Shown here piece by piece: positions 8,581 to 59,592 of a DNA stretch of 64,000 nucleotides. Every line of letters begins with the position of its first letter. Positions within the stretch are counted from its first letter, which is position 1. A program made the position numbers and the translations under genes. The notes under the pieces are model-generated. The model made no database searches, was not told where the DNA came from, and was given only the letters and a program-made list of their open reading frames with translations. This DNA comes from Stieleria neptunia (GTDB lineage: Bacteria; Planctomycetota; Planctomycetia; Pirellulales; Pirellulaceae). The stretch spans positions 8,304,938 to 8,368,937 of the forward strand of contig NZ_CP037423.1 of assembly GCF_007754155.1 (NCBI RefSeq), read 5' to 3'.

Positions 8581-8684
8581 GGTCGAGAAAAAGGGGTCAG
8601 GACTCTTTTCTTCGGTGGGCAAGCGGTGCTTGGGTCGAGAAAAAGGGGTCAGGACTCTTTTCTTCGGTGGGCAAGCGGTGCTTG
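8581..8684. repeat. Two tandem 52-bp repeats related to the 26.4-kb palindrome
   Basis: Two identical 52-base copies, 8581-8632 and 8633-8684, each starting GGTCGAGAAAAAGGGGTCAG. The AAAAGGGGTCAG core is shared with the 27-bp inverted repeat at 26388-26467. A further GGGGTCATTT variant lies just upstream near 8560. They sit between the convergent peptidase and xerC genes. Such cores are often seen as REP/RAYT-type dispersed elements, but no transposase gene lies nearby. Confidence 0.9.
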
Positions 8685-8707
8685 GTACCTGGCACCGCTT
8701 GATCTCG

Positions 8708-38148: not shown

Positions 38149-41100
38149 ATGCGTGATCTTGATCTCTGGATGGCCCTGGGCGGCGGCGATTCGGTCCCCG
38201 ACTTGGCGATCCGGATCGAAACGCTTGCCAACGCGCCGCTGCACCGGCGCGTTCCCTATTTCGCACGGTTGCTGCCTTTTGCGCATCACGCCGACGCGGA
38301 CGTGCGCTCGGCGACGCTCAAAGCGTTTTCAGGCTGTGACGGCGCACGCACGCGGCGTGAATGGGTTGCCGCACTCGATGATGATTCGCCAGACGTGGTG
38401 ACCGCAGCCCTTGGCGCGGTCGCGTCGGCGCCGTGCCGTTCGCTATTGGTCCACGCCCTGTTCCATCGCGGTCTCGAAGTACGAAAGGGCGCGGTCCCGA
38501 TTGCGATGGGGCGAGTGCATCAGTGCCGCCCCCAGGGAAACAACGCCGACTTGCCACTCTTTTTGCTCGCCGATGCGCAGTGCCAACGTGTCGTCGTGGA
38601 ACACTTGGACAATGCACAACTGGATCGGGTGCCGCTCGGGTTGCTGATCGAATTGCATCGTGCCGGCCAGCTTGACGATGTGCTGGCCCGCCGCTTGGTG
38701 TTAAAATCTTCTGCGGACGGATTGCTGGTGTTCCTTCGGGACGGCCTGTCCGATGCCGGCGGCGCTGATCCCGGTGATGATTCCGATGTCCGCTGGCTGA
38801 TCGATTTATTCTGGGAGACGGGAGACCTAAACGACAACGATTATTCTTCGTCGCGTTATCCCCAAGGCGTGATCGCGTTTCTCCGCGAGTCGGTCGCCAC
38901 CAAACGAGCCTTGTGGATGAACAAGAGGTTCGTGTTGATTTGCCAAGACATCGCACGGCAACACGGACATTGGAACCTGCAGATCGCTCAAACCTGCTTG
39001 CTGGGCATGGCGTCTGAAGCGGCATGGATGTATGAGAGCATCTTGCCGGTCGATGTCTTTCGCGCGTCGTTGCAGGTCTTTTACGCAAGCGGTCTGGCTC
39101 GAGAGGAAATCGGCGAGTCGATCGTCGACCAACTGCTGCGTCTGCCGTGCTGCCGACGACCGTCGGGACAACTCGACCTGTGGGTGATTGGCGCGTTGTT
39201 GCACTTGCGTCGCCGGGACGGATTCCAGCGTTTGCTGGGGGTCTACAAGATCAACCAGATTGCAGCCGGGTTCGACGAGCGTCCCGAAGAATCGGTGCGG
39301 CTGTTTTCGTATCCGGGTTCGACACGCGAGCGCAACGAACTGATTGAGGCGGTGTTCGCGCGGCGCAGCAAAGATCCACTTGCGGTCGCGGTGATGATGT
39401 GTGCCTTACCCGCCGACGGATTGGATTTCGCCGGGCGACTGACGGCTCACGACGCGGTGAAAACGCTTCATGCGCTGTCGGATTTGTGCACGACCCACGG
39501 GTGGTCGATTTCCACCAACAAATCCGCCGCCATCTCCCACCAACTCAAACAACGATTCTTCGCCGGTGCAACCCTCCACGGTGAAGCCTTTGCAGGTTTT
39601 CTGAATCAGTGGCTGCAAGGCAAGTGGAAGGGTGAAGGGGCGGACGGGGACGTCTCCGTCGACATGGACCACGTGATGGTGCGGCACTGCGCCACGTTTT
39701 CGATCGGCGTGAACGTCCTGACCGATGTCGTGCGATCCATGCAAAACACGTCCTTCGTCGGCTGGATGTTAGAGACCCTGCCGTCGCTGACGATCGCAAG
39801 ATTCCTGTCGCTGATGCCCTCCTGCAGTGGCCTTTCGTATGCCTTGGAGATGACGTTGGCCAACGCGTTGGCCGATCACCGTGAGCCGGCAATCGCCCAA
39901 TGGGCGGGTGACCGCATTGCGATTCGCGACTCTGGCATGAGCCGAAATCAGGCGCTTGAGACACTGGATCCGTCCAGCCAAATGACGCCAATCTCCGATG
40001 AGTTGGCCGAACAGCTCCGCACCGCCGCACCGCATCGCTTGGAATCGATCGTTCGACCGCTGGGCGCCGGTCGCCGCCAAGGCGTGGCGGCGGCGTTGGC
40101 TGATCGGCCCGACCCGGTTGATCACGACGAGCGGGTTTGGGGTTGTGTGGCGTTGCTCTGTTCGGGCGACGGCGTGGATGAAGTCGCGGCGGGTGTTGCA
40201 CGCTTTTCGGTGGACCAAGAGCACATCATCAACGCCGCTGCCGCCGAACTGGCCTCTTTCGGTGACCTCGCCAAGCTGGGGATTTTTGGGCTGGCTGTGA
40301 TGTTTCGCTGGGAAGCCGCCGCGTTTGCATTCGGCGAACGCTCCATGCAGGATGACACTGAATGTCTTGCATGGCTCCGTCTGGCAGACGACCTTCCCTG
40401 CAAAATACTCTCGCGAGACGTCATTCAATGCGTCGCCCGCGTGTTGGCTCTGTGGATCGCGCGCGATCGCGTTCGCGCAATCGAATTGCTGACCGAAACC
40501 CACTTGGCGGCTTGGCTGGAACAGTTGCAGACTCCCCACGGCAAGCCAGCGGCCGGAGTGCTGATGCGGGCGTTCAAAGCAAATCTCAATCGCCCCGCCT
40601 TCGTGGCGCTGCGCGATCGAGCCGCTGAGATTCTGCCCAACTTGTCCGAATCACTTCAATTTCAACTCCGTTCCTGGGTCGACGCGACCGACCTCGGTTC
40701 GATGGCGATTAGCGCTCGTGTCCAAAAGGTATCCAGCAGCCCTGACGTCGCCCAGGCAATCGCCAGTTGCACCGATCTGGATCAATTGACACAGTGGCTC
40801 GCCGAGCGAAACAGCGGGATCGTCAGCGACGCCGCGGTCCGTCTGGTTGAACTCGGCCGACCGGGCATCGAACGTTTGGTGATCACGCTGAAACAGCCGA
40901 CGCCGGTGCGTTGTGTTTCGATCATCGCAGAAACCATTTCGCTATGGCCTGCCGAGACGATCAACGTCGTGCAAACGTTGATCGATGATGAAGCGGGGCT
41001 GCCCGATTCGGTGCGTTTCCTCGTCGCGTTGGAGGCGTTGGATGCTTTCGGAACGGAAACGGCCGAACCCCAAGGCATCGGGGTCGCACCGACCCTGGAC

Positions 41101-43371
41101 CTCATCTCACAGTTGCTGCTCCGCCCTTGTGATCAGTCATGGGTTCATGTGCTGGACATGAAACGGTTGCTGCAATGGCTGTCGCCGACCACCAAGGATT
41201 CCTATGCGTCATTGTGGATCGACTCCCCGCATCCCAACGTGTACCGATTCGCGGTCGCCCACCAAATCGCCAACCTGAACATGCTCGGCGACGAAGAAAC
41301 CTCAAACGCTTTGGCTGTCGAAGCGGACCTTGAGAAATTTCTGCGGCACGGAACCGATCGCGATTCCGTTTATCGCGTCGTGGCATCGGTCGCACTCGCC
41401 CGTCGAGGCAACTGGGTGGGCTTTCCGATCCTGTTGGCTCATCGGCTTTCCAAAGCGTATGGAGCCCCCAACGATCCGCTGGAACAATTGCCCGACACGT
41501 TCTGCCCAGACGAACTGGTGGTCGAAACGGCTCAGTCGTTGTTGATGGCGGGCCCGAAGGTGATCGGGGAATCAGAAATCGCCTCAGTGATCGATTTCTA
41601 CCGCAGCAGCGAAAACGTGGTCGCCGCCGGGAATCTGGTCATGCGTGAAGCGATGGATGAAAACGTTCGTCAATCGGCTGCCCGTCAGATGCGCAGCGAG
41701 CTACACCGCCAAGCCAAACTGCGCCGCATCGCCAACGTCTTCCAACGCGGCATTCGGCTCGGCCGGGAGTTGACCGGTCGGCTGTTTTCCATCGAAATGA
41801 TCGGCGGGTCCGATTTCGGCTACACGCGATTAAACGAGGACCGCGTGTACATCAATCCGATGCCGTTGCTCAATGGCACCGCCAATGCCGAAGACATCGT
41901 GGAAGGATTGATCTTGCATGAGTTCGGGCACCACCTCTACCACCGGGGCCCCCAGCAACAAGCCGTATGGGAGGAAGCGGATTCGATCGGGATGGGCAGA
42001 CTGCTGAATCTGGTGTCCGACGAGCACCTGGAACGCAACCTCCGTGCACTCGACCGGTCCTATGGCGACCAACTGAAACGTTTGGGTGCCTACGCCTTCA
42101 ATCGCAGTGCCAAAGAATTTGACGTCGACTACATCCTGGAATTGCTCGGCCGACACACCGCCGGCGTGCTGCAAGCCCATCCTCCCGCGGTCGCCCGCAA
42201 CCCGGCGTGTTTGCGAGTTCGTGGCGGCAGCTTGTTGCAGGAATTGGAACGCTCCGGCAGCAGCTTTTCGCGATTCTTTCGCGCCTTGCGTCTGGGGCTG
42301 GGAAATCGTCACAACGACCCGAAAGTCGCCGAGGCCTTGGCGCTGTTTGACAAAGGATTCCGCAAACTGAGAATGCCGCAATTGCTGGACATCTGCAAAC
42401 GACTTCATCAAATCTTCGGCGACGAAGCATGCATGCAGCGGTGCTTGTCGGCGGACGATTTGATCGCCGACCCCGACGGCGATCTGATCATCAAGGCCGA
42501 CGGAATTTCCAACGACGACATCCAGTCGGAGATCCACCGGATCAAGCGAAAGCCCAGTGAGTCGAACGATTCGGGCAGCGGCAGACGCATTCGTGCGATC
42601 AATGTCGGCGAAGATCTGCACTTTGATTTGCTGACCCAGATCCGCCGTTTGCCGTTTCACCCTGCAACCTACCGTCCCTATTCCCAGCAGGTCGCGGCGG
42701 CTTCGAGACGGTTTCGTGATTTTCTGCGTGACTTGGGACTCAGTCGCGTGCGGTGCCCGCGGCGAATTCGGGGACGACAGGTCGACGCCGCACGGTTGAA
42801 AGATTTGGTGCTCAAGGGCGACCCCCGCGTGCTCGTCGCACGTGAGCAGCGGTACCACAATGACTTGTTCTTGTCGGTGGTCGTCGACTGCAGCGGGTCG
42901 ATGGAATTTGGCGACAACCTGTCCAAAGCACAACTGTTTGCCGCGATGATGGCCGAAGCGTGTCGCGACTTGGATGGCGTCGATCTGCGTTTGTTTGGGT
43001 TCACCGACACAGAAATCTATGACGCCGGCGATGCGCGTCGTCCCGCCGTCGCCGAATTTCGTGCCGGTGGAGGAAACAACGACGCCGCGGCGCTCTGGCA
43101 TGCTTCGGAGGTTGCGTCACAATCCAAACGCAGTGCCAAGGTGGTGGTGATGATCAGCGACGGACTGCCGACCGAATGCAGCACCGAAGCGCTCAAGGCA
43201 CTCGTCGCTCGACTGTCACGCCGCGGCGATTTGGTGTGTGCCCAAGTCGCCGTTCAACCGCTGGCGGAAGTTTGCTTTTCACACTACATCGAATTGACGG
43301 ACGCCGACACGATGGTCTCGGTGCAACGATTCGGTGCGATCGTCGCGAGACTGGTCAAAGGCATTTTATAA
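38149..43371 (+). CDS. Giant HEAT-like / HExxH metallopeptidase-like / VWA protein
   Basis: A 1740-residue protein without signal peptide or clear membrane helix, so probably cytoplasmic. The ATG at 38149 has a GAAGGA ribosome-binding site 8 bases upstream. The first about 1150 residues are helical HEAT-like repeats (ADVRSATLKAFSGC, SPDVVTAALGAVAS). Residues about 1200-1350 contain LILHEFGHHLYHRG (His1257, Glu1258, His1261), a zinc-metallopeptidase motif, with EEAD (1275-1278) as a candidate third ligand. A CobT-like lead-in (GRQVDAARLKDLVLKGDPRV) precedes the VWA domain with a complete MIDAS start, DCSGS (Asp1580, Ser1582, Ser1584), GFTDTE and MISDGLPTE. The MoxR-type ATPase gene starts 17 bases downstream. 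Known MoxR-VWA pairs remodel or metallate target proteins; the fusion to a peptidase-like domain is unusual. Confidence 0.85.
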   Translation: MRDLDLWMALGGGDSVPDLAIRIETLANAPLHRRVPYFARLLPFAHHADADVRSATLKAFSGCDGARTRREWVAALDDDSPDVVTAALGAVASAPCRSLLVHALFHRGLEVRKGAVPIAMGRVHQCRPQGNNADLPLFLLADAQCQRVVVEHLDNAQLDRVPLGLLIELHRAGQLDDVLARRLVLKSSADGLLVFLRDGLSDAGGADPGDDSDVRWLIDLFWETGDLNDNDYSSSRYPQGVIAFLRESVATKRALWMNKRFVLICQDIARQHGHWNLQIAQTCLLGMASEAAWMYESILPVDVFRASLQVFYASGLAREEIGESIVDQLLRLPCCRRPSGQLDLWVIGALLHLRRRDGFQRLLGVYKINQIAAGFDERPEESVRLFSYPGSTRERNELIEAVFARRSKDPLAVAVMMCALPADGLDFAGRLTAHDAVKTLHALSDLCTTHGWSISTNKSAAISHQLKQRFFAGATLHGEAFAGFLNQWLQGKWKGEGADGDVSVDMDHVMVRHCATFSIGVNVLTDVVRSMQNTSFVGWMLETLPSLTIARFLSLMPSCSGLSYALEMTLANALADHREPAIAQWAGDRIAIRDSGMSRNQALETLDPSSQMTPISDELAEQLRTAAPHRLESIVRPLGAGRRQGVAAALADRPDPVDHDERVWGCVALLCSGDGVDEVAAGVARFSVDQEHIINAAAAELASFGDLAKLGIFGLAVMFRWEAAAFAFGERSMQDDTECLAWLRLADDLPCKILSRDVIQCVARVLALWIARDRVRAIELLTETHLAAWLEQLQTPHGKPAAGVLMRAFKANLNRPAFVALRDRAAEILPNLSESLQFQLRSWVDATDLGSMAISARVQKVSSSPDVAQAIASCTDLDQLTQWLAERNSGIVSDAAVRLVELGRPGIERLVITLKQPTPVRCVSIIAETISLWPAETINVVQTLIDDEAGLPDSVRFLVALEALDAFGTETAEPQGIGVAPTLDLISQLLLRPCDQSWVHVLDMKRLLQWLSPTTKDSYASLWIDSPHPNVYRFAVAHQIANLNMLGDEETSNALAVEADLEKFLRHGTDRDSVYRVVASVALARRGNWVGFPILLAHRLSKAYGAPNDPLEQLPDTFCPDELVVETAQSLLMAGPKVIGESEIASVIDFYRSSENVVAAGNLVMREAMDENVRQSAARQMRSELHRQAKLRRIANVFQRGIRLGRELTGRLFSIEMIGGSDFGYTRLNEDRVYINPMPLLNGTANAEDIVEGLILHEFGHHLYHRGPQQQAVWEEADSIGMGRLLNLVSDEHLERNLRALDRSYGDQLKRLGAYAFNRSAKEFDVDYILELLGRHTAGVLQAHPPAVARNPACLRVRGGSLLQELERSGSSFSRFFRALRLGLGNRHNDPKVAEALALFDKGFRKLRMPQLLDICKRLHQIFGDEACMQRCLSADDLIADPDGDLIIKADGISNDDIQSEIHRIKRKPSESNDSGSGRRIRAINVGEDLHFDLLTQIRRLPFHPATYRPYSQQVAAASRRFRDFLRDLGLSRVRCPRRIRGRQVDAARLKDLVLKGDPRVLVAREQRYHNDLFLSVVVDCSGSMEFGDNLSKAQLFAAMMAEACRDLDGVDLRLFGFTDTEIYDAGDARRPAVAEFRAGGGNNDAAALWHASEVASQSKRSAKVVVMISDGLPTECSTEALKALVARLSRRGDLVCAQVAVQPLAEVCFSHYIELTDADTMVSVQRFGAIVARLVKGIL

Positions 43372-43388
43372 GAACCGAGGAAGTGATC

Positions 43389-44498
43389 ATGGAGAAATGG
43401 AACATTGACGACCTTTCGGTTGGCATGCTGGTCGAAGCGACGTTTTGGGCCAACCCGGTCGAGTCGAGCGACTTTCGCTTTCGCGCAACGCACCTGGACG
43501 GGCGTCGAGCCCCAAAAGTCGTGCTTTGCGACGACATGCGAATCGTTGCCGGAACGCCCTGCCGCGTCAGAATCAAAGCGATCAAGAAACCGGCGCGTGA
43601 GGACCGCGGATCGATCGAAGTCGAATTTGATCGTCTGCTCGAGTTTCGACTCGATGGCGTGTACCTGGACCCGCTGGTCTCCAAAAAACTTCAAGTGCTG
43701 TTGGAAAGCGGTCTGAACATTTTGCTCGACGGCCCACAGGGCTGTGGAAAAACCGTGACCGCGCGATCGATCGCCGAAACGCTGGGGATGGAGTTTGTGT
43801 TTTTCAATTGCGGCGCCGTCATCGACGCGACCGACTTTTTGGCGACGATCCAAGTTCGCGCGTCAGAATCCGGATCGCCCGTGACCGACTTCACCAAAAC
43901 CGAAGTCTTGGAAGCCCTGGAGCATGCGATCGAGGCTCCGGAAAAACGATTCCTGGTGTTTTTGGACGAACTGAATCGGTGTCCCGAAAGTGCCCGCAAC
44001 GCGCTGATGCCCGCGCTCGATTCATCACGCCGACTGTTTCATCCGATCGAAAACCGGTTCATCCGAATCGGCGACAACGTTCAATTCGTCGCGGCGGTCA
44101 ATCGCGGCAGCGAGTTCTCGGCGACCTTTGGGATCGATGCCGCGCAACTGGATCGATTCGCGCCGGTGCAAATGGATTACTTGCCGGCGCCCGAGGAGGT
44201 CAAACTACTGAAGTCACGACACCCCGAGTTGAGCGAAGCGATCCTGAAACGAATCGTCAGCCTGGCGGGGAAAGTCCGCGGCGCCGCCGAAATCCCGGGC
44301 GGTTTATCCGTCCGGGCGACCGACGAAGTCTGTGTCTATCTGAAGCATCCCCTGTTTTCCGAGCAGCCGCACAAGGACCTGCCCGAGATTTTGAAGTCGT
44401 CTTTCTGCGGTCGGTTTGCCGGACGCTGGGACGACGTCACGACCGATGCGGGAGCCGTCTGGGCGCTGATCCAGCGGGGGGCGACGAAAGAGGCTTGA
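43389..44498 (+). CDS. MoxR/CobS-type AAA+ ATPase
   Basis: A 369-residue AAA+ ATPase. An N-terminal domain of about 90 residues of beta character (VEATFWANPVESSDFRFRAT) precedes the ATPase core: Walker A GPQGCGKT (residues 115-122), Walker B FLVFLDE (188-194), sensor-1 Asn238 (AAVNRGSEF) and an arginine finger near Arg256 (QLDRFAPVQMDYL, the usual MoxR phrase). The C-terminal lid follows. The ATG at 43389 has a strong GAGGAAG ribosome-binding site, 17 bases after the VWA gene. By family knowledge, such ATPases form hexamers that work with VWA proteins through the MIDAS site (RavA-ViaA, CobS-CobT). It should be the motor of the adjacent giant protein. Confidence 0.92.
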   Translation: MEKWNIDDLSVGMLVEATFWANPVESSDFRFRATHLDGRRAPKVVLCDDMRIVAGTPCRVRIKAIKKPAREDRGSIEVEFDRLLEFRLDGVYLDPLVSKKLQVLLESGLNILLDGPQGCGKTVTARSIAETLGMEFVFFNCGAVIDATDFLATIQVRASESGSPVTDFTKTEVLEALEHAIEAPEKRFLVFLDELNRCPESARNALMPALDSSRRLFHPIENRFIRIGDNVQFVAAVNRGSEFSATFGIDAAQLDRFAPVQMDYLPAPEEVKLLKSRHPELSEAILKRIVSLAGKVRGAAEIPGGLSVRATDEVCVYLKHPLFSEQPHKDLPEILKSSFCGRFAGRWDDVTTDAGAVWALIQRGATKEA

Positions 44499-44559
44499 TG
44501 GGCAGCGTGTGATAGTTCACGATGGAGTGACAGAACCGTATTCCTTCCTGAACGAACCG

Positions 44560-45162
44560 ATGACCGAATCGATCTCAAAAGTGGCAGAGCGTGCGGGGCA
44601 ATTCTTCATGGGACAATCACCGATCCATCAAGCCATGCTGCGCCTGACCAAGACGCTCGGCGAAATGCAAATCCCCTTTGCAATCGCAGGCGCGATGGCC
44701 GCCAATGCTCACGGTCATCGGCGAACAACGGCCGATATCGATATCCTGATTCGCGGCGAAGACTTGGAAAAGTTCAAACAGCAGTACATCGGTCGCGGCT
44801 GGGTCAACAAGTTCGAAGGTTCCAAGAACTTCCGCGACGCCGTGTGCGGGGTCGACATTGATGCGTTGATCGTCGGCGGTTATCCCGGCGATGGACTGCC
44901 CAAACCGGTTTCCTTCCCCGAGCCGGAACGCGTCTCGGAAGTCAAGGAGGACGGGATCCCGTTCGTCTCCTTGAAGACGTTGCTGGAGCTGAAACTGGCC
45001 AGCGGCATGACGGCATCGCATCGCATGCAAGACATGGCTGATGTGATGAACCTGATTCGCGCCAACGGCTTGCCAAAGGACTTCGCCGAAAACCTGGAAC
45101 CCTACGTCGCCGAAAAGTTCGGCGAGATGTGGCAAGCGGCGCAAATCAGCGATGAACATTAG
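44560..45162 (+). CDS. AbiEii/AbiGii-like nucleotidyltransferase
   Basis: About 200 residues. The nucleotidyltransferase (Pol beta superfamily) motif is visible as FAIAGAMAANAHGHRRTTAD followed by IDIL, giving the two aspartates of the DxD motif (TADIDI) after a GA/GS-like helix start, as in AbiEii toxins and related DUF1814/DUF6036-type proteins. A third acidic residue is likely in VDIDALIVGG. The substrate may be a nucleotide and an RNA or protein acceptor. The start is uncertain: ATG at 44560 or a GTG at 44509; none has a strong ribosome-binding site. It lies 61 bases after the ATPase gene and no antitoxin-like small gene is adjacent. A perfect palindrome follows its stop by two bases. Confidence 0.75.
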   Translation: MTESISKVAERAGQFFMGQSPIHQAMLRLTKTLGEMQIPFAIAGAMAANAHGHRRTTADIDILIRGEDLEKFKQQYIGRGWVNKFEGSKNFRDAVCGVDIDALIVGGYPGDGLPKPVSFPEPERVSEVKEDGIPFVSLKTLLELKLASGMTASHRMQDMADVMNLIRANGLPKDFAENLEPYVAEKFGEMWQAAQISDEH

Positions 45163-45164
45163 TC

Positions 45165-45216
45165 GGTAGGTGACGCTGTGCGTCACGGTCCGATGTGACG
45201 CACAGCGTCACCTACC
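45165..45216. terminator. 22-bp perfect palindrome between convergent genes (family G)
   Basis: Left arm 45165-45186 (GGTAGGTGACGCTGTGCGTC plus AC), 8-base loop, right arm 45195-45216. It begins two bases after the nucleotidyltransferase stop and ends six bases before the sulfatase stop, so it is well placed as a two-way terminator. A related fragment occurs at about 35032-35054. Confidence 0.85.
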
Positions 45217-48178: not shown

Positions 48179-51163
48179 TCAAGCAACCGGAACCACAATT
48201 CGCTCGGCAATCGAGTGGATGTCCTGCATGATCAAGCGGGTCGCCTGCGGGTCCGCTGATTCGGCGAATCGCTCCATCGCTAACGTCGGTGTACTGAACT
48301 GCGGGATCCCCAGGGAACCGCTCGATCCGCGCAGCCAATGTGCCAGCGACGCCAGTTCGCCCCATTGCTGCTGATCGATGGCGTCATCCATGTCCGACAA
48401 CTTTCCGTCCAATCGCTGCAGGAATTCGACCACGATCTCGCGGTACTCCGGGTCATCCATCGGCAGCGAGGAGTGGATCGGCTGCCCGGGCAGATCGGGT
48501 GATTCGCTCGTGGCATTGATCGCCGCGAACGTGTCCCCGGGCATCTCTTGCGGGGGAATCTCTTGCCGGGGCATCTCACGACTCGGCTCGACCGCCTGGA
48601 GCGGGGAGTCGGCGACGTCACCGGGCAGATCGATGCGTGAGGCGAGATGGTGCAGTCGTCTCAGCGACTGCCGACAGGCTTCGGCATCACCGGCCTTGGC
48701 GTGTCGTTCGAGGGCGTACGCAGGATCGACGAATGGTTCAAAGCCCGCACTTCCGCTGACGCCCTTGAGCCAATGTGCTTCGGCGGCGAGGGATTCAACG
48801 TCACGATCGTCGAGCAGTTGATCGAGCCGAGGCAACCGCGAACGCAACGCGTCGACAAAGTCTTCGGCAATCTCCAGGAAATCGGGATCATCCAGCGGAT
48901 AACTGCACGTGATCTTCCCTTCCTCTTCGGCGGGTGCTTCGGCAGGCTCGGCGGAAACCTCCGTCGGCGGGGCGGTCACGTCGCGCTCCGCTGACGCCGC
49001 CGGCTGGGACTCGCCGGCCAGGGTGGTTTCCGCTGTCGGTTCCTCTCCGAGTTTCTCGCCGAGTTCCTCAGCCAGGGTTTCGATCAAGTGATCGATTTTG
49101 ATCGGCTTGGACAGGAACCCGCTGCAGCCCGCGTCGAAACACTTTTCTTGGTCGCCTTGCATCGCGTTGGCGGTCAAGGCGTAAATCGGTTTGCTGTATC
49201 CGCAGGACCGCAACTGGCGTGTCGCCGTGTAACCATCCATCACCGGCATCTGCATGTCCATCAGGATGATGTCGAATGATTGTTCGTTCGTCGCCTCGAT
49301 GGCCAGCTGGCCGTTTTCCACGGCCACGACTTCGGCGCCGGCTTGGCCGAGCACCAGTTGCAGCAGTTTCCGGTTGGGCGAACCGTCGTCGGCGACCAGG
49401 ATCTTGCACGGCGGCAACTGCCGCACCTTGGCTTTGCCGGACGTCGATTCCTCGTCCGCCTCGGCTTGGTCGGCCGGATCGACGAGTTCCAGTTCGTCAG
49501 CGCTTCCGATCGTGATCCGAATCGTAAAGGTGGTGCCCTCGCCCGGTGTGCTCTGGAGTGAAATGTCGCCGCCCATCGCCTCGGCGAGTTGTTTGCTGAT
49601 CGCCAGCCCGAGCCCGGTACCGCCGAATCGTCGGGTGATCGAAGTATCGGCTTGGGCAAACGGCTCGAACACCTTGGCCTGGGCTTCGGGTGAAATCCCG
49701 ATCCCGGTGTCGGTGACATCGATCGCCAAGACCAGGTTTTTGTCGCTTCGTTGTTTGGTCGCGTCCTGATCGATTCGCGCGACGATCTCGACGCCACCTT
49801 CGTCGGTGAACTTGATCGCGTTGCCGGCCAGGTTCATGATCGCCTGGCGAAGGCGAACCGAATCGCCCTGCATCCTCTTGGGCAACAGACCTTCATTGCG
49901 AAATTTCAGCGAGATGCCTTTCTCGTCGGCCTTGCTGCGGAGCAAGGACACGACTTCCTTGATCAATTTGTAGGGCGAGCAGGGACCGAGTTCCAATTCC
50001 ATCTGCCCGGATTCGACCTTGGACAAATCCAAAATGTCGTTGATCAAGGCGAGCAAGTGTTCGCCACTGCCATGAATCGTGTCCAGGTATTCCTGGCGAT
50101 CGGTCACGGACGTGTCAAACCCGCGTCGCAGCACGTCGGTATAGCCCAGGATGGCATTCATCGGTGTACGAATTTCGTGACTCATGCGTGCCAAGAATTC
50201 GCTTTTGGCGCGGTTGGCATCGTCGGCGGCACGTTTGGCGACGGTCAGATCGCGTTTGGTTTCTTCCAATTGGGTCACGTCATCGAAACTGACCAGCACG
50301 CCGCGACACTTGCCTTCGCTGCCCTGGACGGGCGAGGCGTTTGCGATCAGCGTCCGAGACGGTTGTCCGGGTTGCACCAGTTCGATCATGCCCCCCGAAA
50401 CGACCGTTTCGGAGGTCACCGCTTCGTGCCACGGGGAGCCTTCCAGGTGATCCAGGTTCCAGGGCAACTCATCCGCCTTTTTGCCCAACAGCTTGTCGGC
50501 CTCGCTGCCGACCCAATCGGCGAAGGACTGGTTGGCCAAGACGACGCGTCCCTGTCGATCCAGGACGAGCAGACCTTCGGCGAGATTATCGAGTGCGGTG
50601 CGGACGCGTTTCGGGACCGTTTTGGAGGGGTCCAAGTGGGCCAGCATCTTTTTCAGATAGAGCTGAAACAGCAGAAAGCTTGCCAGACAGACGAATCCGG
50701 TCAGCAACATCCACGGGTCGGTAAGCGTCGCCATCCAGCTGTCATCATGCAACGAGCGGAAACACAACTCCACCGCTCCCCAGCGATCTTTACCGCTGCG
50801 AATCGGAACCCGCACGTGCGTGTCGGTCGACCGATTCGATTCATCGGCCGGCCAGACCGCTTCGTGATCACCGAACACCGAAACCAGGTCACCGTTGGCC
50901 CGGCGAACGCCCGCGGAAATGACATCGTCGTTTCGCTCGACCACCGCCTCGAGCAACTGATCCAAGCGACGGGTCTCGCCGTACGAGATGTATTCCGAAC
51001 TGGTCAGCGCGATGGTTTCGCAAAGATTGCCGCGTCCTTCACGAATCGCCGATTCTCGTTCCGGCACCAGCCCCAGCATCATCGCTCCGGACAGGACCGA
51101 CAACAGCATGCAAACCAACCCGAGCGAGATCCGCGTTTTGGCGTTCAGTCTCAAGAAATTCAT
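48179..51163 (-). CDS. Hybrid sensor histidine kinase with REC and two Hpt domains
   Basis: A 994-residue membrane kinase. Helix 1 (residues 13-32), a periplasmic sensor of about 115 residues, helix 2 (about 150-170), a PAS domain (about 185-300), HisKA with the phospho-acceptor His329 (SHEIRTPMN), a HATPase (NLAGNAIKF, DTGIGI, GGTGLGL), a receiver domain with Asp636 (ILMDMQMPV), and two Hpt domains with His797 (AEAHWLKG) and His942 (LAHWLRG). This is a complete phosphorelay within one protein, BarA-like plus an extra Hpt. The output regulator is not in the window. The ATG overlaps the stop of the giant adhesin-like gene by four bases (ATGA), so the two are translationally coupled. The sensor may therefore monitor surface attachment or envelope load; that is inference. 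Confidence 0.93.
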   Translation of the reverse strand: MNFLRLNAKTRISLGLVCMLLSVLSGAMMLGLVPERESAIREGRGNLCETIALTSSEYISYGETRRLDQLLEAVVERNDDVISAGVRRANGDLVSVFGDHEAVWPADESNRSTDTHVRVPIRSGKDRWGAVELCFRSLHDDSWMATLTDPWMLLTGFVCLASFLLFQLYLKKMLAHLDPSKTVPKRVRTALDNLAEGLLVLDRQGRVVLANQSFADWVGSEADKLLGKKADELPWNLDHLEGSPWHEAVTSETVVSGGMIELVQPGQPSRTLIANASPVQGSEGKCRGVLVSFDDVTQLEETKRDLTVAKRAADDANRAKSEFLARMSHEIRTPMNAILGYTDVLRRGFDTSVTDRQEYLDTIHGSGEHLLALINDILDLSKVESGQMELELGPCSPYKLIKEVVSLLRSKADEKGISLKFRNEGLLPKRMQGDSVRLRQAIMNLAGNAIKFTDEGGVEIVARIDQDATKQRSDKNLVLAIDVTDTGIGISPEAQAKVFEPFAQADTSITRRFGGTGLGLAISKQLAEAMGGDISLQSTPGEGTTFTIRITIGSADELELVDPADQAEADEESTSGKAKVRQLPPCKILVADDGSPNRKLLQLVLGQAGAEVVAVENGQLAIEATNEQSFDIILMDMQMPVMDGYTATRQLRSCGYSKPIYALTANAMQGDQEKCFDAGCSGFLSKPIKIDHLIETLAEELGEKLGEEPTAETTLAGESQPAASAERDVTAPPTEVSAEPAEAPAEEEGKITCSYPLDDPDFLEIAEDFVDALRSRLPRLDQLLDDRDVESLAAEAHWLKGVSGSAGFEPFVDPAYALERHAKAGDAEACRQSLRRLHHLASRIDLPGDVADSPLQAVEPSREMPRQEIPPQEMPGDTFAAINATSESPDLPGQPIHSSLPMDDPEYREIVVEFLQRLDGKLSDMDDAIDQQQWGELASLAHWLRGSSGSLGIPQFSTPTLAMERFAESADPQATRLIMQDIHSIAERIVVPVA

Positions 51164-54100
51164 CGAACGGTTTCCCCGGATGCCGTTGACTGGATCACTG
51201 ATTGAACCACTGACTGGGCCTCGGTCTCAATCGGACTGTCGCTCTGGCGTTCGTTTTCGGTCTTGTCCAGCATTTCTTCTAACGAGTCGTCGTCCGTGTC
51301 GTCGTCATCTTCTAATTCGTTCAGGACCAACAGTGGATCGACAAAACTCCATGCCGGTAAATGTGCCAATAAGCTGGTCGCCAGTAAACCGCCACGAACG
51401 GTCCACATCACATAGCCGACCGAAAGAGCTCCGGAGAAACCTGCGAACGTCCCTGCAAAGTAGTACGGCGCGATGTCCGATTGTTTGATATCGTCTTGCA
51501 GGTTTTCCATGTCGCCCCAAAGTAGCTTGCTATCGAATCTGGCGATCCCAAGGATTGAGACGCTTGGGCGGTTTGATCCGGAGCGTGCTTGGCGGCCGAT
51601 CTGGCCAGAGTGGCTGTCGGACAAATTTGCGATTCGCTCTGATTCATCGGCGGCGTCGGTCAGGTCCGGCATGTTGGTGGGCATCATGCTGAGCGTCAAA
51701 ATTTCGTCGTCGGTCGTCTGAATCACCGCCCCGCCGGTCAAGACCAAGGGAACATCGCCTTCCGGCACCCTGTCCGGAGTGATCGCAGCGAGTGTTTCCG
51801 ATTCATCGTCGGTCTCGGCATCCTCTTCTTCGGCCGGCGGTTCCGGCAGCGTTTCGGGTTCGGGTTCGGGACCGGGGTCCGCACTCAGGAGGTCACCCGG
51901 CGTGACCTCGCTCAGATCGTTGGGCTTGGCGACCACGATCGTGACGGTCGTGGGCGCACTCGTCGCAATGCCGTCGGTCACGGCATAGGTAAACGTGACC
52001 GATCCCGTAAAGTTTGCCGCCGGCGTGAATTGGAACGACCCGTCGGCCCCCAGCGTCAACGTTCCCGTGATCGGCCCCGAAACCGGGATCACCGTCAACG
52101 GATTGCCGTCCAAATCGATGTCATTGGCCAGCAACCCGCCGGCGCCGATGGTCAACGTCTTCCCCGTTTGCGTGACATAGTTGTCATCGGCAGCCGTCGG
52201 CGTGTCGTTGACGGTCACGATTGCGACGTCAGCCGTTGCCACATTGCTGTTCGATCCGCCATCCGTGGTGACGAACTGAATCAGCCGCGTGGTCGCATCC
52301 GGGTTGGCCGAGGCGTTGTTGTACGCAATCGTACGCAACACTTGTTGGTAGTTCGCGACGGTGTCGGTGCCGGAAAGCGTCAACGTGCCCGCAGCATAAA
52401 CGGCGGTGATGGACGTCCCGCTGGTGTCGGCGGTGAGCGTTTCATTGGCGCCGTCCAACAGGTTGGTGATCGTGACGGTCAATTGCGTCAAGTTGGGCGA
52501 GTCGATATCGCTGATGATCGCGTCGGCCGCATCGGAGATCGCCACCGCCCCACCAGCTTCGGTAAAGGTTGCGTTATAGTCCGCCCCCGTCGCGCCGCTG
52601 GAATCGTTTGCGTCCAGATCCATCGTCGGCGCGTCGTTGAGAGTGACCAGATTGACCGTGGCGTCGTGGGCGACGTTGGTGCCCCCATCGCCGTCATTGA
52701 GTGTGAATCGAATCGTACGGGCAGAGGTCGTGGGATTGATGGCATCCGTGTTCTGGTAGGTAACGTTTTCGATCAATGCATCGGCGGCTGTCGCGGTGGC
52801 GCTGGCATTGAACGTGACGACCAAATCCGCGCCGGCCGAGCCGCCGGTGAAGGTTCCGATCACGACCGGCCCGCCGCCGAAGTCGTACAAGACGTTGCTG
52901 CCGGAAACCGTGATGTTGCCGACACCCGCTCCTTGATCGCGGATGGCCAAGACGTCTTCGGCCGTATCGCCCCCGGCGAAGACCGACACGGTCAGGTTTC
53001 CGGTGTCGAAGTCGGCCGAGTCGACATCGCTGACCGTGACGTTGGTCCCCTGTTCGATCACCGTCGCCGCGTCGCCCTCGGTGTAGCCCAGCGTATCGCC
53101 GGCCAAATTGTCGATTATCGGCACATCGTTTTGTGCCGCCACGCTGACCGTGGCATCATGAGCGGTGCTGGTGCCGCCGTCGCCGTCGTTGAGCGTGAAT
53201 CGAATCGTACGGGCGGAGGTCGTGGGGTTGGTGGTATCCGTATTCTGGTAAGTGATGTTTTCAATCAATGCGTCGGCGGCGGCTGCGGTGGCGTTGGCAT
53301 TGAACGTGACGACCAAATCCGCGCCGGCCGAACCGCCGGTGAAGGTACCGATGGCCACCGGCCCGCCGCCGAAGTCGTACAAGACGTTGCTGCCGGACAC
53401 CGTGATGTTGCCGACGCCCGGTCCTTGATCGCGAATGGCCAGGATGTCTTCGGCTGTATCGCCTCCGGCGAAGATCGACACGGTCAGGTTTCCGGTGTCG
53501 AAGTCGGCCGAGTCGCCATCGCTGACCGTGACGCTCGTCCCCTGTTCGACGACCGTCGCCGCATCGTCTTCGGTGTAGCTAAGCGTGTCGCCGGCCAAAT
53601 TACCGATCGTCGGCGCCGCGTTGACCGTCAGTGATGTCCCGAGCGAAAAGTAGTTTCCGTCCGCCAGATCGACGCCCGTGAACGTGACGATTTCGGATCC
53701 GGCGTTGTAGCCTGTTGCTGTCACCAGCGTCGCGCCACTGCTGAAATCGGCGTCGCCATCGATGATCAGATTGAAATCGGCCGCCGTCGTTCCGGTGTAG
53801 GTCAATCCGCTCAGGTCAAAGGAGATCGTCGTGGTCCCCACATCGCCCGTCTCGTCGACGCGCCAGATACGGGCAAGTCGGTCCGCGATGCCAGCCGGTT
53901 CGCCGGTCACTTCACCCAACGCACCGTCGTCGTTCCCCCACATCAGGAACTCTCGATCGTCCTGATTGGACGCCCCGGACATGGTCACGATCGCATCGAC
54001 GTTGTTGGATCGAGACTGCCCCTGGGCCAGGATCGAGCCATTGTCTTGTCCGATTCCGGCGATGTCGTTGTCGTACCCGGCGTTGGTCGCCGCACTCCAG

Positions 54101-57100
54101 ACGACCGTCCCCGTGGAATCAAGGTAGTTCGTGCCGCTCGTTTGATCGAGCGTGAGACCATATTTGATGGCCAGGTAGGAGTCCACTTTCAAACGATCCG
54201 TCGCGCTGAGGTCCGTCGAATAGATCACGACTTCGCCGACGTCCAGATCATCGTTGAATCCTCCGCCCGGATACTCGCCCAAGAAGAACTGCCCGAATTG
54301 GGTATTGTCCAGTGGAGTGCCAACGCTTGCGTTTCCCGAAGCGGTTTGCCGACCATCGATGTTGATGCTCAGGCCGGCGGGAGCCCCGGGAGTCGCTTGG
54401 GCATTGATGATGTGGTATCCAGCACTTGGTGATACAGCGGTCAGTTGATCATCGTTCAGATCACCAAAGTCGAATCGAATGTCATCTTCGAGATTCACGC
54501 GGTTGCTGAGTGTGTCAATCCACTGCAACATCACCCCATTGGAACCGTTCGTACTGCCGGCGAGGAAAAGGGAGGCGGAATCGGTCCCAAACAGGTCGGA
54601 TCCTAAAACAGAAAAGTCCGCCAAGTGGTCATTGATGCCGTCGAACGAGATGATCGGGTTGAAGTTCAATCCGGACGCGATCAGATCGGGGCGTTGGGTG
54701 GAGAGGGCTTGCTGAAGTTCGGACAGCGTCGCGTTGGCAACCTGATTCTCCCACTGGCTGACGCCGCCCAGACCGATGGTCACACCGGCGTCGGCCCGCA
54801 ACCACAACGTCAGACCGCTCACGACGCCGCCCGGAGCACCTTGGACAACGCTGACCATGGTGTCATGATTCAAGCTGACCGCGCCGTCACCATCATCGAC
54901 GGTGAAGCGAATCGTGCGTGTTCCGGTGGTCGCCGCGACGGTGTCTGTGTTTTCGTAAGTGATATTTCGCACCAAGGCCGAAGTCGCTGTCGCGTCGGCC
55001 GATGCGTTCAGCGTCACGACCAAATCCGCCCCGCCACTGCCGCCGGCCCAGGTTCCGATCAACACCGATCCGGCGCCGAAGTTGTAGAAAACGTTGGAGC
55101 CCGTGACGCTGATCTGACCCGTACTCGTTCCCTGATTCCGAATCGCCAGCACGTCTTCACTGGCGTCGTTTCCGGCGGCGATCGAAACCGTCAGGTTTCC
55201 CGAATTGAAATCAGCCGAATCGACGTCGGCAACGGCCGCATCACCGCCGTGTTCGATCACCAACGGTCCCGAACCGGGGAGGTAGGCGAACGAGTCACCC
55301 GCAAGGTTTGATACGGTTGGGGCGTCGTTGAGCGTGGCCACGTTGACGGTTGTATCATGCGTCGCACTGGCCCCCCCGTCGCCGTCGTTGAGCGTGAATC
55401 GAACGGTTCGGGCAGAGGTCGAGGGGTTGTCGGTATCGGTATTCCGGTAAGTGATGTTTTCGATCAACGCATCGGCGGCCGTCGCCGTGGCGTTGGCGTT
55501 GAAGGTCACGACCAGGTCCGCGCCCGCGGTGCCGCCGGTAACGGTTCCGATCACGACCGGTCCGCCACCAAAGTCATACCGAACGTCGCTGCCGGAGATG
55601 CTAATATTGCCGACTCCCGCACCCTGATTGCGGACGGCCAAAACGTCTTCACCGGCATCGCCGCCTGCGAAGATTGACACGGTCAGATTGCCCGTGCCAA
55701 AGTCAGCCGAGTCCGCATCGCCGACGGTGACGTTGGTACCTTGCTCGATCACCGTCGCGGAATCACCTTCGGTGAAATTAAGGGTGTCGCCCGTGAGATT
55801 GCTGATCGTGGGGGACGCGTTGGCGGCTGCGCCGTTTGCGACGGACACGAGCGAAAATGCGTCAATCGATTCAGCGCCACTGTCCAGCTTAATGTCGGCG
55901 CCTTCAAACAACAGTGTGCCAGTTGCCACCGTGTTGGTTCCTGCGGTTGTCACCGTCAACGCAACAACATCCTGCGGATTCACCGCTCCGGCCATTCCCG
56001 CGAATCCGCTCGCAACGATGCTGTCAAGTGAAACGAGCACCTGCCCTTGAGTCAGACTAGCGCCTCCAACGGTGACCGTGTCGGCCAGCAGATGCACCGA
56101 GGTGAAATCTGCTACTCCGATTCCAAGATCCGCACCATCAACAAAAAGCGTCGGCGTACCTGAAGTCGTGGTGTTTCCTGCACTCGTCACGTCGAAGTAG
56201 TGAATGACGTTATCCGTTCCCTTCGTTTCAACCAGCAAGAAGTCGCCCGCAGTGAGCAATTGACCACCGACGGTCATATTTTCCTCAACCAGACTGAAAC
56301 CACCGATGTTTGTGTCACCGAGCAACGGATCGTCAAGTACGATTTCGAAGGTCCCGACGGAGTAGTTGCCAGGAGTGTCCGGACGAAAGCGTACGATATC
56401 ACTCTTGTTGATCGTCAACGAGTTGGTGCTCGTCAACGTTGGCTGCGCACCATTAACGGAGAACAACACATCGCCTTCCTGAAGGCTAATCGTATTCCCC
56501 GGCGCCCCCACACTGATCGACCGACTGACGACGTGTAGCCCCGTCAGTTCGACATCAATGCTCGCTCCGAAGTGATTGACAAGATCGAAAGCACTGGAAA
56601 ACGAACCGTTGGTAACACCCGGCTCCAAGGAGAAACTCGGATCCGAGACTTCCAGCAAGGTGTCCTTGTCCCAGTTTGTGATACCTAGTGTACCGCTGCC
56701 AATGACATCTCCTTTCGTGCTGAGCCACACTGCTTCCCGCATGAATGTGATGCTTGCCGCATCAAGACCGCTCGTAGCGGACCCGTCGGAGACATCAACA
56801 TCGTATGAAGGCCCTGCCACGCCGTTGTCGTGGATGAATTGAATGTCGCCCGCTGTGATCTCACTCTGGGTGAACGTGAAAACCGGAACGCCCGGAGCCG
56901 ACACTCGCTCAAAACCGCCACCGGTCACACTCGACACCGTGAAGGTAAGACCTGCGTTGGAGTGGTCGACGTCAGTTGCCGAAAGCTCGTTTGACGAAAG
57001 CACCACGCTGCCGCCCTGGGAAATGACGAGCCGATTGTTACCCAGCACCGGGGCGTCGTTGACCGGGTCGATTGTCAACCCCGCCGTCACCATCGTACTC

Positions 57101-59592
57101 AAGTCGGAATTGTTTCCGGTCGCGGATGCTTGGAAATTGAATCCGGCCGATCCGTTGTAGTTCGTGCTGCCTTTGAATTTGACGCCGGCGTTGCCTTCGG
57201 CGTACGTGATGAAACTGTTGTTGCTGATCACCGTCACGCCGTCATTCTTGTACAGCGTTCCGTTCGTGATGCCGGAGATCTTGAAGTGCGTGACCTCGGT
57301 GCCATCGGCGGCGTTGCGTTGCAGTTGAAAGCCATTCGAAAGGACGTCTTCGTCGGTGTTGGTCGGCCCGTTGAACGTCGGCGTGTCCGCTTTCGGGTCG
57401 ACGTCGATCGTCATCGTGTAGGTCGCGGCGCTGTATTCGGTCCCGTCATAGACTTGGAACGTAAAGCTGTCGTAGGGATTGCCATGATTCTGCGACACCG
57501 GCGTGAAGGTCAAATTGGGGATTTGTCCCACGGAGATGACCTGTTCGTCGGTCACGTCGAACATGCTCAACTTGAGTGTGCCGACGGATTCCAGCGACTT
57601 GATCTTGATTTGTGTCAGACTGTCACCGATGTCCACGTCGGAGAAGTTAAAGTCCGACGCCGAGAAGGTATAGACGCTGTCTTCGTCGGTGCTGACCGTC
57701 TTGTTGCTGGCCGTTGGTGCGTCGTTGATCCGAGCCACGTTGACGGTGGTGTCGTGAGTCCCGCTGACACCGCCGGCCCCGTCGTACAATTGGAATCGCA
57801 CATTGCGGGCGGAGGTGGTCGGATTTGCGGTGTCGGAGTTGAAATAGGTGATGTTTTCGATCAGTGCTTCGGCCGCTTCGCCGTCCGCGTTGCTGCTGAG
57901 CGAGACGATCAGATCGTTTCCGCCGCTGCCACCGGAAAACGTTCCGATCGTGACCGCACCGGCCCCGAAGTTATACGTGACGTCGCTGCCGGAGATACCG
58001 ATTTGACCGACCCCGGTGCCTTGATCGCGGATGCCGAGGAAGTCTTCGCCGCTGTCACCTCCGGAGGTGATCGACACGTGCAAGACGCCGCCGTTGAAAT
58101 CGGTCGAGTCTCCATCGGTCACGACGACGTTGCCGCCTTGCTCGATCACGGTCGCCGAGTCGTCTTCGTTGTAGTTCAGCGTGTCGCCGGCGAGCCCACT
58201 GATCGACGGCGCACCGCTGACCGTGGCGGACTTGATCGAGATGCCCGCTGCGGCCCAGGTGCTGTTGTTGCTGGTCGACCACTGGGCGTTGACAGACAGC
58301 GTCCCGGCGACCGACTGCGTCGAAGCCGTTGCGTTGGTTTTTCCAACGAATGTTTCCCAACGCTCGATGCCGGTGTCGGCGGTGAACTCGTAGTCGTTGC
58401 TGTCACTGTACGCCAACACGCCGAACACGATGTCCGTGGGTGCGGTCGCGACGGTGACGGATTGGCTCGTCGAATCGCCCTTTGCCGATGCGAACGCCCC
58501 CAACGGCGTCGACTGATCCACATCGTTGAATGACATCAGGCCCACGGCGGCGCCTTCGTGGGCGGTCCCGGAATACGTGACATTCAACGTTTGATTGCCG
58601 CTGGCCGGATTGACGAGCGCCCAAATTTCGACGCGTGCCTTGTCGGCGTCTTGTCGCGAGCCAATTTTTGTCAAACCGACCCCGTTGAACGTGATGTTTG
58701 ACACCTCATTCCCCTTGTCTTCGCCAAAGGAAACACTGACCAACAGCAATTGATCGGTACCGGCGCCGACGTCAAATGATGTACTATCGCTGCCCGTGAA
58801 ACTGGGCGTCGTGAACACCGCCGTGTTGCCGACCGTCACGTTCAGCAAATGCCCCCAGTTCTGCTGCACATCGAGGCTGAACGCGAGGCTGGTTTCAATC
58901 GCGCCCGTGGAAAACTCCAGGTCCCAGTCGCCGCCAAGGATCCTGTGCCCGGTGTCGTCATCGCTGGCCGCCACGTCAACATCGCACAGTGTTGCCAACG
59001 CTTCGGCCAACGCCCGACCATCGTCGGTCGCCGCCAGGTCACAACCGTAGATCAACAGGTCGGCCCCGTCCCGCAGCGAGGCGTTCCAGCTGGCAATCGC
59101 GCCCGCGTGGCCATCGAGGTTGTCGATCGACAGCCACGTGTTACCCAGTTGGAACTGGCCTTCGGTACCGTGTGAGACGAAGTGGACGGCGTCGACGTCC
59201 CGGTAGCCGGAGAGGATTTCGCCAACCTGTTCGACGCCGTCCCGCGAACTGTCGAGCAAATAGATTTCCAGGTCTGCGTTTCCGCTTTCGGATCGCAGGT
59301 CGTCGAGCAGCTGTTCGTAGTCCTCGACTCCCGCATCGACGAAAACGAGTTCCAAACGTCGCGTTTGCTGCGATTGGCTGTCCGATGGATTGCCTCGTCC
59401 GGCATCGGTCACGGTGTCGGAGGAGGTGACATCGATTGCAACGGGCTCCTCCGCGTCCATCTCCGTACCGGCCTGGTCAATCGGCGTCGCGCTCAGCAGC
59501 AACCGTTTTTCCAACACCGACGCATCGAGTAGATGGCTGCCGCGGCCTGTCGACGAAGAATCGTTTTTTCGTTTTCGTCTAAGCCACGGCAT
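51160..59592 (-). CDS. Giant DUF4347 adhesin-like surface protein with tandem repeats
   Basis: A 2810-residue protein. Residues 28-37 (EKRLLLSATP) form the LEPR-XLL-like N-terminal motif of large planctomycete surface proteins. Residues about 79-235 are DUF4347 (ELVFVDAGVEDYEQL, VHFVSHGTEGQFQLG, LLIYGCDLAATDDG), with a His141-Gly and Cys184 pair. Then come a beta domain, cadherin-like repeats (Cadherin_3-like LVISQGGSVVLSSNELSATD), five copies of a repeat of about 164 residues, and between them a LamG/DUF8202-like region (GLTLWLRADAGVTIG, VDSYLAIKYGLTL). Near the C-terminus, LSVGYVMWTVRGGLLATSLL and LAHLPAWSFVDPLLVLNE form membrane segments, with an acidic tail. Its stop overlaps the histidine kinase start. 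Probably a cell-surface protein anchored by its C-terminus. Confidence 0.88.
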   Translation of the reverse strand: MPWLRRKRKNDSSSTGRGSHLLDASVLEKRLLLSATPIDQAGTEMDAEEPVAIDVTSSDTVTDAGRGNPSDSQSQQTRRLELVFVDAGVEDYEQLLDDLRSESGNADLEIYLLDSSRDGVEQVGEILSGYRDVDAVHFVSHGTEGQFQLGNTWLSIDNLDGHAGAIASWNASLRDGADLLIYGCDLAATDDGRALAEALATLCDVDVAASDDDTGHRILGGDWDLEFSTGAIETSLAFSLDVQQNWGHLLNVTVGNTAVFTTPSFTGSDSTSFDVGAGTDQLLLVSVSFGEDKGNEVSNITFNGVGLTKIGSRQDADKARVEIWALVNPASGNQTLNVTYSGTAHEGAAVGLMSFNDVDQSTPLGAFASAKGDSTSQSVTVATAPTDIVFGVLAYSDSNDYEFTADTGIERWETFVGKTNATASTQSVAGTLSVNAQWSTSNNSTWAAAGISIKSATVSGAPSISGLAGDTLNYNEDDSATVIEQGGNVVVTDGDSTDFNGGVLHVSITSGGDSGEDFLGIRDQGTGVGQIGISGSDVTYNFGAGAVTIGTFSGGSGGNDLIVSLSSNADGEAAEALIENITYFNSDTANPTTSARNVRFQLYDGAGGVSGTHDTTVNVARINDAPTASNKTVSTDEDSVYTFSASDFNFSDVDIGDSLTQIKIKSLESVGTLKLSMFDVTDEQVISVGQIPNLTFTPVSQNHGNPYDSFTFQVYDGTEYSAATYTMTIDVDPKADTPTFNGPTNTDEDVLSNGFQLQRNAADGTEVTHFKISGITNGTLYKNDGVTVISNNSFITYAEGNAGVKFKGSTNYNGSAGFNFQASATGNNSDLSTMVTAGLTIDPVNDAPVLGNNRLVISQGGSVVLSSNELSATDVDHSNAGLTFTVSSVTGGGFERVSAPGVPVFTFTQSEITAGDIQFIHDNGVAGPSYDVDVSDGSATSGLDAASITFMREAVWLSTKGDVIGSGTLGITNWDKDTLLEVSDPSFSLEPGVTNGSFSSAFDLVNHFGASIDVELTGLHVVSRSISVGAPGNTISLQEGDVLFSVNGAQPTLTSTNSLTINKSDIVRFRPDTPGNYSVGTFEIVLDDPLLGDTNIGGFSLVEENMTVGGQLLTAGDFLLVETKGTDNVIHYFDVTSAGNTTTSGTPTLFVDGADLGIGVADFTSVHLLADTVTVGGASLTQGQVLVSLDSIVASGFAGMAGAVNPQDVVALTVTTAGTNTVATGTLLFEGADIKLDSGAESIDAFSLVSVANGAAANASPTISNLTGDTLNFTEGDSATVIEQGTNVTVGDADSADFGTGNLTVSIFAGGDAGEDVLAVRNQGAGVGNISISGSDVRYDFGGGPVVIGTVTGGTAGADLVVTFNANATATAADALIENITYRNTDTDNPSTSARTVRFTLNDGDGGASATHDTTVNVATLNDAPTVSNLAGDSFAYLPGSGPLVIEHGGDAAVADVDSADFNSGNLTVSIAAGNDASEDVLAIRNQGTSTGQISVTGSNVFYNFGAGSVLIGTWAGGSGGADLVVTLNASADATATSALVRNITYENTDTVAATTGTRTIRFTVDDGDGAVSLNHDTMVSVVQGAPGGVVSGLTLWLRADAGVTIGLGGVSQWENQVANATLSELQQALSTQRPDLIASGLNFNPIISFDGINDHLADFSVLGSDLFGTDSASLFLAGSTNGSNGVMLQWIDTLSNRVNLEDDIRFDFGDLNDDQLTAVSPSAGYHIINAQATPGAPAGLSINIDGRQTASGNASVGTPLDNTQFGQFFLGEYPGGGFNDDLDVGEVVIYSTDLSATDRLKVDSYLAIKYGLTLDQTSGTNYLDSTGTVVWSAATNAGYDNDIAGIGQDNGSILAQGQSRSNNVDAIVTMSGASNQDDREFLMWGNDDGALGEVTGEPAGIADRLARIWRVDETGDVGTTTISFDLSGLTYTGTTAADFNLIIDGDADFSSGATLVTATGYNAGSEIVTFTGVDLADGNYFSLGTSLTVNAAPTIGNLAGDTLSYTEDDAATVVEQGTSVTVSDGDSADFDTGNLTVSIFAGGDTAEDILAIRDQGPGVGNITVSGSNVLYDFGGGPVAIGTFTGGSAGADLVVTFNANATAAAADALIENITYQNTDTTNPTTSARTIRFTLNDGDGGTSTAHDATVSVAAQNDVPIIDNLAGDTLGYTEGDAATVIEQGTNVTVSDVDSADFDTGNLTVSVFAGGDTAEDVLAIRDQGAGVGNITVSGSNVLYDFGGGPVVIGTFTGGSAGADLVVTFNASATATAADALIENVTYQNTDAINPTTSARTIRFTLNDGDGGTNVAHDATVNLVTLNDAPTMDLDANDSSGATGADYNATFTEAGGAVAISDAADAIISDIDSPNLTQLTVTITNLLDGANETLTADTSGTSITAVYAAGTLTLSGTDTVANYQQVLRTIAYNNASANPDATTRLIQFVTTDGGSNSNVATADVAIVTVNDTPTAADDNYVTQTGKTLTIGAGGLLANDIDLDGNPLTVIPVSGPITGTLTLGADGSFQFTPAANFTGSVTFTYAVTDGIATSAPTTVTIVVAKPNDLSEVTPGDLLSADPGPEPEPETLPEPPAEEEDAETDDESETLAAITPDRVPEGDVPLVLTGGAVIQTTDDEILTLSMMPTNMPDLTDAADESERIANLSDSHSGQIGRQARSGSNRPSVSILGIARFDSKLLWGDMENLQDDIKQSDIAPYYFAGTFAGFSGALSVGYVMWTVRGGLLATSLLAHLPAWSFVDPLLVLNELEDDDDTDDDSLEEMLDKTENERQSDSPIETEAQSVVQSVIQSTASGETVR
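52627..53610 (-). repeat. Two near-identical 492-bp tandem repeats in the giant gene
   Basis: 52627-53118 and 53119-53610 are adjacent 492-base units coding for 164-residue domains with the phrase LAGDTLGYTEGDAATVIEQG. Long stretches of DNA are nearly the same in both, so the duplication is recent. More diverged copies lie at about 54835-55326, 55327-55820 and 57720-58212; the first of these pairs shows the same 492-base spacing. Confidence 0.9.

Follow-up and report, generated by a model that had tools for sequence, protein, structure and literature searches.

Pairs of an AAA+ ATPase and a protein with a von Willebrand factor A (VWA) domain remodel enzymes and ribosome precursors. In midasin (Rea1), several AAA units lie in one long eukaryotic polypeptide. 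The available excerpts of two reports describe NorQ and NorD (NorQD) as required for iron insertion (PMC13036017, PMC9976466), and the excerpted text of another proposes MoxR-vWA conflict systems in myxobacteria and planctomycetes (PMC7159879). We analyzed a 64,000-nucleotide stretch of the Stieleria neptunia genome (the window; positions 8304938-8368937 of a single contig of 11.0 Mb) in which neighboring genes encode a giant protein and a MoxR-clade AAA+ ATPase (Table 1). Our search of the open-access literature found no paper whose title or abstract describes an AAA+/VWA pair in which a HEAT platform carries a metallopeptidase. Our findings support the original prediction of a MoxR-VWA pair that includes a helical platform as well as a metallopeptidase-like center, and the giant and the ATPase are a conserved unit in several bacterial phyla.

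We used four aligned ATPases as the query for a scan of genome contigs and obtained 63 ATPase loci, in which genes were called with a simple custom caller. Thirty-nine were titled Myxococcota, and the others came from Planctomycetota, Pseudomonadota, and single Acidobacteriota, Gemmatimonadota, and Krumholzibacteriota bins or were without assignment; many of the sources were bins, which can contain foreign contigs. A giant gene adjoined the ATPase gene in 44 loci (34 upstream, 9 downstream, and 1 on both sides), with gaps of -4 to 258 bases. The giant was in the same locus but nonadjacent in 7 loci and was not seen in 12. Two loci counted among the 7 were L098, where by eye the giant starts directly behind the ATPase, and L080, where the match is weak and at an edge. 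Contig ends may have truncated L105 and L090. In the source genomes of the 13 loci without an adjoining giant (those 12 and L080), we detected a giant elsewhere in 12, one being only a partial match. None was found in the source genome of L084, and three control genomes with a giant in the locus were positive. Bins with several ATPases held equal numbers of giants, two in G295 and three in G296.

Separate searches for the giant and the ATPase in 144 genomes of the order of Minicystis rosea, with the best 9 candidates per genome scored in one search and the best 13 in the other, found both in the same 12 genomes and neither in the other 132 (Fisher P = 9.7e-18, uncorrected for kinship). At least 4 of these 12 carriers were already known from the ATPase scan. 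The two genes were on different contigs in 3 carriers (G299, G300, and G302), which perhaps reflects one event, these being close relatives. Distances between giants correlated with those between ATPases (r = 0.91 for 53 pairs and 0.80 for the 43 closer pairs; none of 2,000 permutations was as high), although the nearest neighbor agreed in only 24 of 53 cases. Named carriers include Minicystis rosea DSM 24000 and Plesiocystis pacifica SIR-1, the latter with the two genes unlinked, so the two-gene unit is directly testable.

With the best 5 candidates per genome scored, 10 of 235 genomes in the phylum of Minicystis proved to hold the giant. Residues 1148-1740 of the giant matched 34 of 294 genomes of the window's phylum at an E value of 0.001; 4 of these matches were strong (the window genome, G044, G191, and G037), and 30 were weak matches to the VWA half. 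At 1e-60, with the best 13 candidates scored, the ATPase was found in 1 of 146 genomes of the window's order. Its closest kin is in a Planctomycetales bin (77% identity; quick tree, Shimodaira-Hasegawa-like approximate likelihood ratio support of 99). The unit is thus patchy in its occurrence, and it was either acquired in the window genome or lost elsewhere.

The original prediction proposed a system of three genes, with an AbiEii-like nucleotidyltransferase as the third component, and named conservation of their order as the main test. Conservation of the giant-ATPase pair is upheld by the 44 adjoining loci and the 12 shared carriers, but the nucleotidyltransferase as third component is not supported. 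When every open reading frame (ORF) of 80 residues or more in the 63 loci (894 kb in total) was searched with phmmer, the own copy of the third gene was recovered as a positive control and no relative was detected in any related locus, at least 700 bases 3' of the ATPase being present in 58 of the 63. Absence from nearly all related loci, named beforehand as evidence against a three-gene system, is thus what we observed. The third gene has a single match in its own genome, and relatives occur across the order, in 63 of 146 genomes with the window genome counted; among these 63, the ATPase was found in the window genome alone. The AbiEii label also fell short of the Pfam cutoff, with a score of 20.2 bits against 22.5; the score for NTP_transf_5 was 18.8 against a cutoff of 31.2. 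The third gene is therefore a bystander and no conserved part of the giant-ATPase system, and we rejected it as an effector or third component. Since the pair and the third gene are both absent from two other genomes of the genus, their joint arrival in the window genome is possible.

Nor did any other gene of the 63 loci emerge as a third conserved component. An ORF antisense to the ATPase forms the largest neighbor cluster (8 loci), followed by two clusters of 6 loci each, kinase-like and short-chain-dehydrogenase-like by sequence and Pfam tallies, and by others of at most 3 loci. These findings bear on whether the locus could be a defense or conflict system akin to the MoxR-vWA ternary systems in which the nucleotidyltransferase would act as effector, a possibility that we consider very unlikely. 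Such a role would fit the patchy distribution, mostly in large genomes, the lineages in which MoxR-vWA conflict systems have been proposed, and the shared absence of all three genes from both other genomes of the genus. The three proteins also had weak PADLOC matches: the ATPase to IetA (8.9e-6, over 39 residues around Walker A), the giant to HEAT-ARM_XIII (0.0017), and the third gene to AbiEii (0.0056). However, none of ten proteins of the window neighborhood, the nucleotidyltransferase included, had a PADLOC match at 1e-5, nothing lies C-terminal to the VWA domain of the window giant, and no third gene is conserved. Among 103 flanking proteins, 68 PADLOC models were matched at 1e-10; the 25 models listed include PD-T4-6, mad6, a kinase, MkoA, and PglW, each matching 4 proteins, as did the Pfam family Pkinase, and we take these matches to be generic kinases. 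The 45 ATPase loci on viral contigs are similar only distantly (at most 34% identity where the aligned stretch exceeds about 75 residues, and 38-60% over short stretches of 25-53 residues), and two plasmid records matched the VWA part only, at 24-25% identity. A defense role is thus unsupported.

Both the HEFGHH motif and the VWA domain claimed for the giant are present. Across 42 giants, HExGH and DExLER occur together, with DExLER beginning 34-36 residues past the first histidine of HExGH; DEHLER likely carries the third zinc ligand, although which of its glutamates would bind zinc is a choice we infer. The motif residues do not vary among 42 giants and 30 ATPases, and we therefore regard these motifs as more than chance. 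The region preceding the VWA domain may correspond to a finger, judging from position and sequence. The roughly 1,150 residues of HEAT-like repeats in the original prediction hold by homology, as HEAT_2 matched 20 of 28 proteins in the N-terminal alignment and all four shorter (class II) giants. The window protein is one of the 8 without a match, and Pfam detected no HEAT repeat in its own residues 1-1160 at an E value of 0.01, so its assignment rests on its relatives. Mean column identity was 26% for the platform, 44% for the peptidase domain, and 52% for the ATPase, computed on different row sets.

By sequence profile and fold comparison, the VWA domain is of the CobT/NorD/midasin type with an intact metal ion-dependent adhesion site (MIDAS). 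CobT was the top solved-structure match of its profile, sharing the N-D and SDG-P motifs, and CobT_C matched 29 of 42 giants at 0.01. These matches could be taken to indicate a cobalt or magnesium chelatase, with CobST plus an H/N subunit. However, CobN or the Mg-chelatase subunit was found in none of the 12 carrier genomes searched; the control was positive in 5 of 14. Homologues are therefore not confined to the vicinity of chelatase genes, and we rejected this extremely unlikely reading as unsupported.

In the ATPase, the Walker A, Walker B, sensor, and arginine residues are intact, and G115, G118, G120, K121, D193, E194, N238, R256, and R309 are invariant in 30 of 30 sequences. Midasin was the top sequence match, NorQ also matched, and bpMoxR matched 7 of 30 ATPases weakly. 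We also observed that the N-terminal 98 or so residues (43389-43682) have conserved positions and no Pfam match, a possible family marker.

Table 1. Features of the giant-ATPase locus in window coordinates
Feature	Position	Strand	Basis or remark
Giant protein, 1740 aa	38149-43371	+	ORF; HEAT-like N-terminal region, gluzincin-like domain, finger region, CobT/NorD/midasin-like VWA
HEAT-like platform, residues 1-1150	38149-41598	+	By homology
Gluzincin-like metallopeptidase domain, residues 1167-1439	41647-42465	+	Model; predicted local distance difference test (pLDDT) 89.5, predicted template modeling score (pTM) 0.84
HEFGHH, residues 1257-1262	41917-41934	+	H, E, G, H of HExGH invariant in 42/42
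DEHLER	42019-42036	+	D, E, L, E, R invariant in 42/42
Region before VWA, residues 1516-1569	42694-42855	+	Matches NorD finger in position
MIDAS motif DCSGSM, residues 1580-1585	42886-42903	+	VWA domain
Further VWA motif NND	43075-43083	+	
Further VWA motif SDG	43156-43164	+	
MoxR-clade AAA+ ATPase, 369 aa, midasin/NorQ/CbbQ-like	43389-44498	+	ORF, motifs, Pfam
Walker A GPQGCGKT	43731-43754	+	Sequence
Walker B VFLDE	43956-43970	+	Sequence
Nucleotidyltransferase-like gene	44509-45162 (GTG start) or 44560-45162 (first ATG)	+	ORF

Layouts of the pair vary among loci. In class I, the giant, mostly of 1600-1880 residues, precedes the ATPase, with complete exceptions of 1443 (L087) and 1982 (L107) residues; in class II (L091-L096), the ATPase precedes a giant of 1125-1314 residues. 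Core-only giants in L101, L102, and L103 start near the peptidase domain, with HExxH located between residues 70 and 77 (the ends of L101 and L102 are truncated), and L098 probably shares this layout. An exception to class I is L067, from a Polyangiaceae bin, where giant and ATPase form one open frame of 2144 codons (2268-8702), possibly a natural fusion or else the result of a lost stop codon or sequence error. In L082 (1877-13311), two full giants surround one ATPase. These variations imply a recurrent core of peptidase, VWA, and ATPase, with the HEAT platform variable. We also observed a remnant-like giant fragment with VWA in L041 (7219-7806), with no peptidase domain or ATPase noticed in the ORF list of its 9.5 kb.

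The intact AAA+ motifs and MIDAS, the finger-like region, the zincin-type HExGH/DExLER site, the HEAT platform, and the tight co-occurrence together support a reading on which our own confidence is evenly balanced: that the two genes encode an ATP-driven AAA+/VWA remodeling machine whose VWA partner incorporates a metallopeptidase. Homology and co-occurrence would place this machine with NorQD, CbbQO, and CobST. In such a machine, the ATPase may assemble into a hexamer with the finger gripped in its pore, and the HEAT platform and MIDAS would hold a large target. ATP turnover would twist the VWA domain against the platform, and a strained segment, belonging to the target or to the giant itself, could be presented to the zinc site and cut.

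The principal alternative, which we regard as possible though on the unlikely side, is a chaperone for metalloenzyme maturation or metal insertion like NorQD and CoxD-CoxE, in which the HExGH domain would deliver metal or be structural and nothing would be cut. In sequence and fold, the nearest relatives of the VWA domain and the ATPase (CobT, NorD, NorQ, and CoxE) belong largely to metal-insertion machines, consistent with this role. However, no gene recurs widely beside the pair, CobN or Mg-chelatase was not found in the 12 carriers, and the HExGH glutamate is invariant in all 42 giants, which seems beyond the need of metal binding. Cutting by the remodeling machine is suggested by this conservation and a weak fold match. 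Carried furthest, the pair would be a new bacterial ATP-dependent protease or segregase, an unlikely proposal by analogy with Wss1/SPRTN-Cdc48, in which the ring twists a VWA adaptor bearing a zinc peptidase and a HEAT platform for a large target, with no threading into a chamber.

In the window, the giant comes first and the ATPase second, the reverse of the order given in the title of the original prediction, and the nucleotidyltransferase-like gene and a convergent sulfatase gene follow. The predicted plus strand and first gap of 17 bases are correct; the second gap, given as 61, is 10 or 61 bases with the GTG or ATG start, respectively. Other neighbors encode a sugar transferase, a quinolinate phosphoribosyltransferase, two phosphoglucomutase-type proteins, an AhpC/TSA-domain protein, and DUF4404, CBS, and histidine kinase proteins. 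A locus-flanking gene has only 47-50% identity in the three genomes with a clear match. Between the nucleotidyltransferase and sulfatase genes, an inverted repeat, GTGACGCACAGCGTCAC, occurs on both strands 8 bases apart (45170-45211) and resembles a terminator or a repetitive extragenic palindromic element. A minus-strand ORF of 2810 aa lies close by (51160-59592).

Compared with known systems, the pair resembles the MoxR-vWA ternary conflict systems (VMAP, iSTAND, FtsH, and beta-propeller) in combining a MoxR-clade ATPase with a VWA partner, but the excerpted description gives those systems a third conserved component and, as a rule, effectors that follow the VWA (PMC7159879), neither of which was seen here. 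For DUF2201_N-VWA proteins, 2 of the 9 loci inspected have a VWA-like motif after HExxH. However, hhalign gave probabilities of 0.3% for the peptidase part, with the HExxH regions aligned, and 6.9% for the VWA part, and DUF2201_N was not among seven Pfam families listed for the 42 giants at 0.01; no match to DUF2201 was significant. Elsewhere, the window genome separately encodes a protein of the DUF2201 type that has a VWA motif (L178, G000:C1 7243447-7244259). CoxD-CoxE is similar in that VWA_CoxE was the top Pfam match of the window VWA and matched 22 of 42 giants, but no carbon monoxide dehydrogenase-type gene was noticed in the flanks among the 25 of 141 families listed. Relative to CobS-CobT, the giant adds HEAT and peptidase parts. 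Midasin, the top fold match of the VWA domain, differs in having several ATPase stretches, as seen in sequence comparison. Wss1/SPRTN and Cdc48 are separate proteins, with an ATPase of another AAA+ clade and without VWA. The giant family, if its zinc site cuts, would join remodeling and proteolysis in one adaptor. NorD, unlike the giant, is described in the available excerpts as an N-terminal domain and linker before the VWA, with HEAT or metallopeptidase parts unmentioned there (PMC13036017, PMC9976466). With NorQ-NorD and CbbQ-CbbO, the pair shares the likely organization of a two-protein AAA+/VWA machine, matching in ATPase sequence, VWA fold, and an extra region before the VWA domain.
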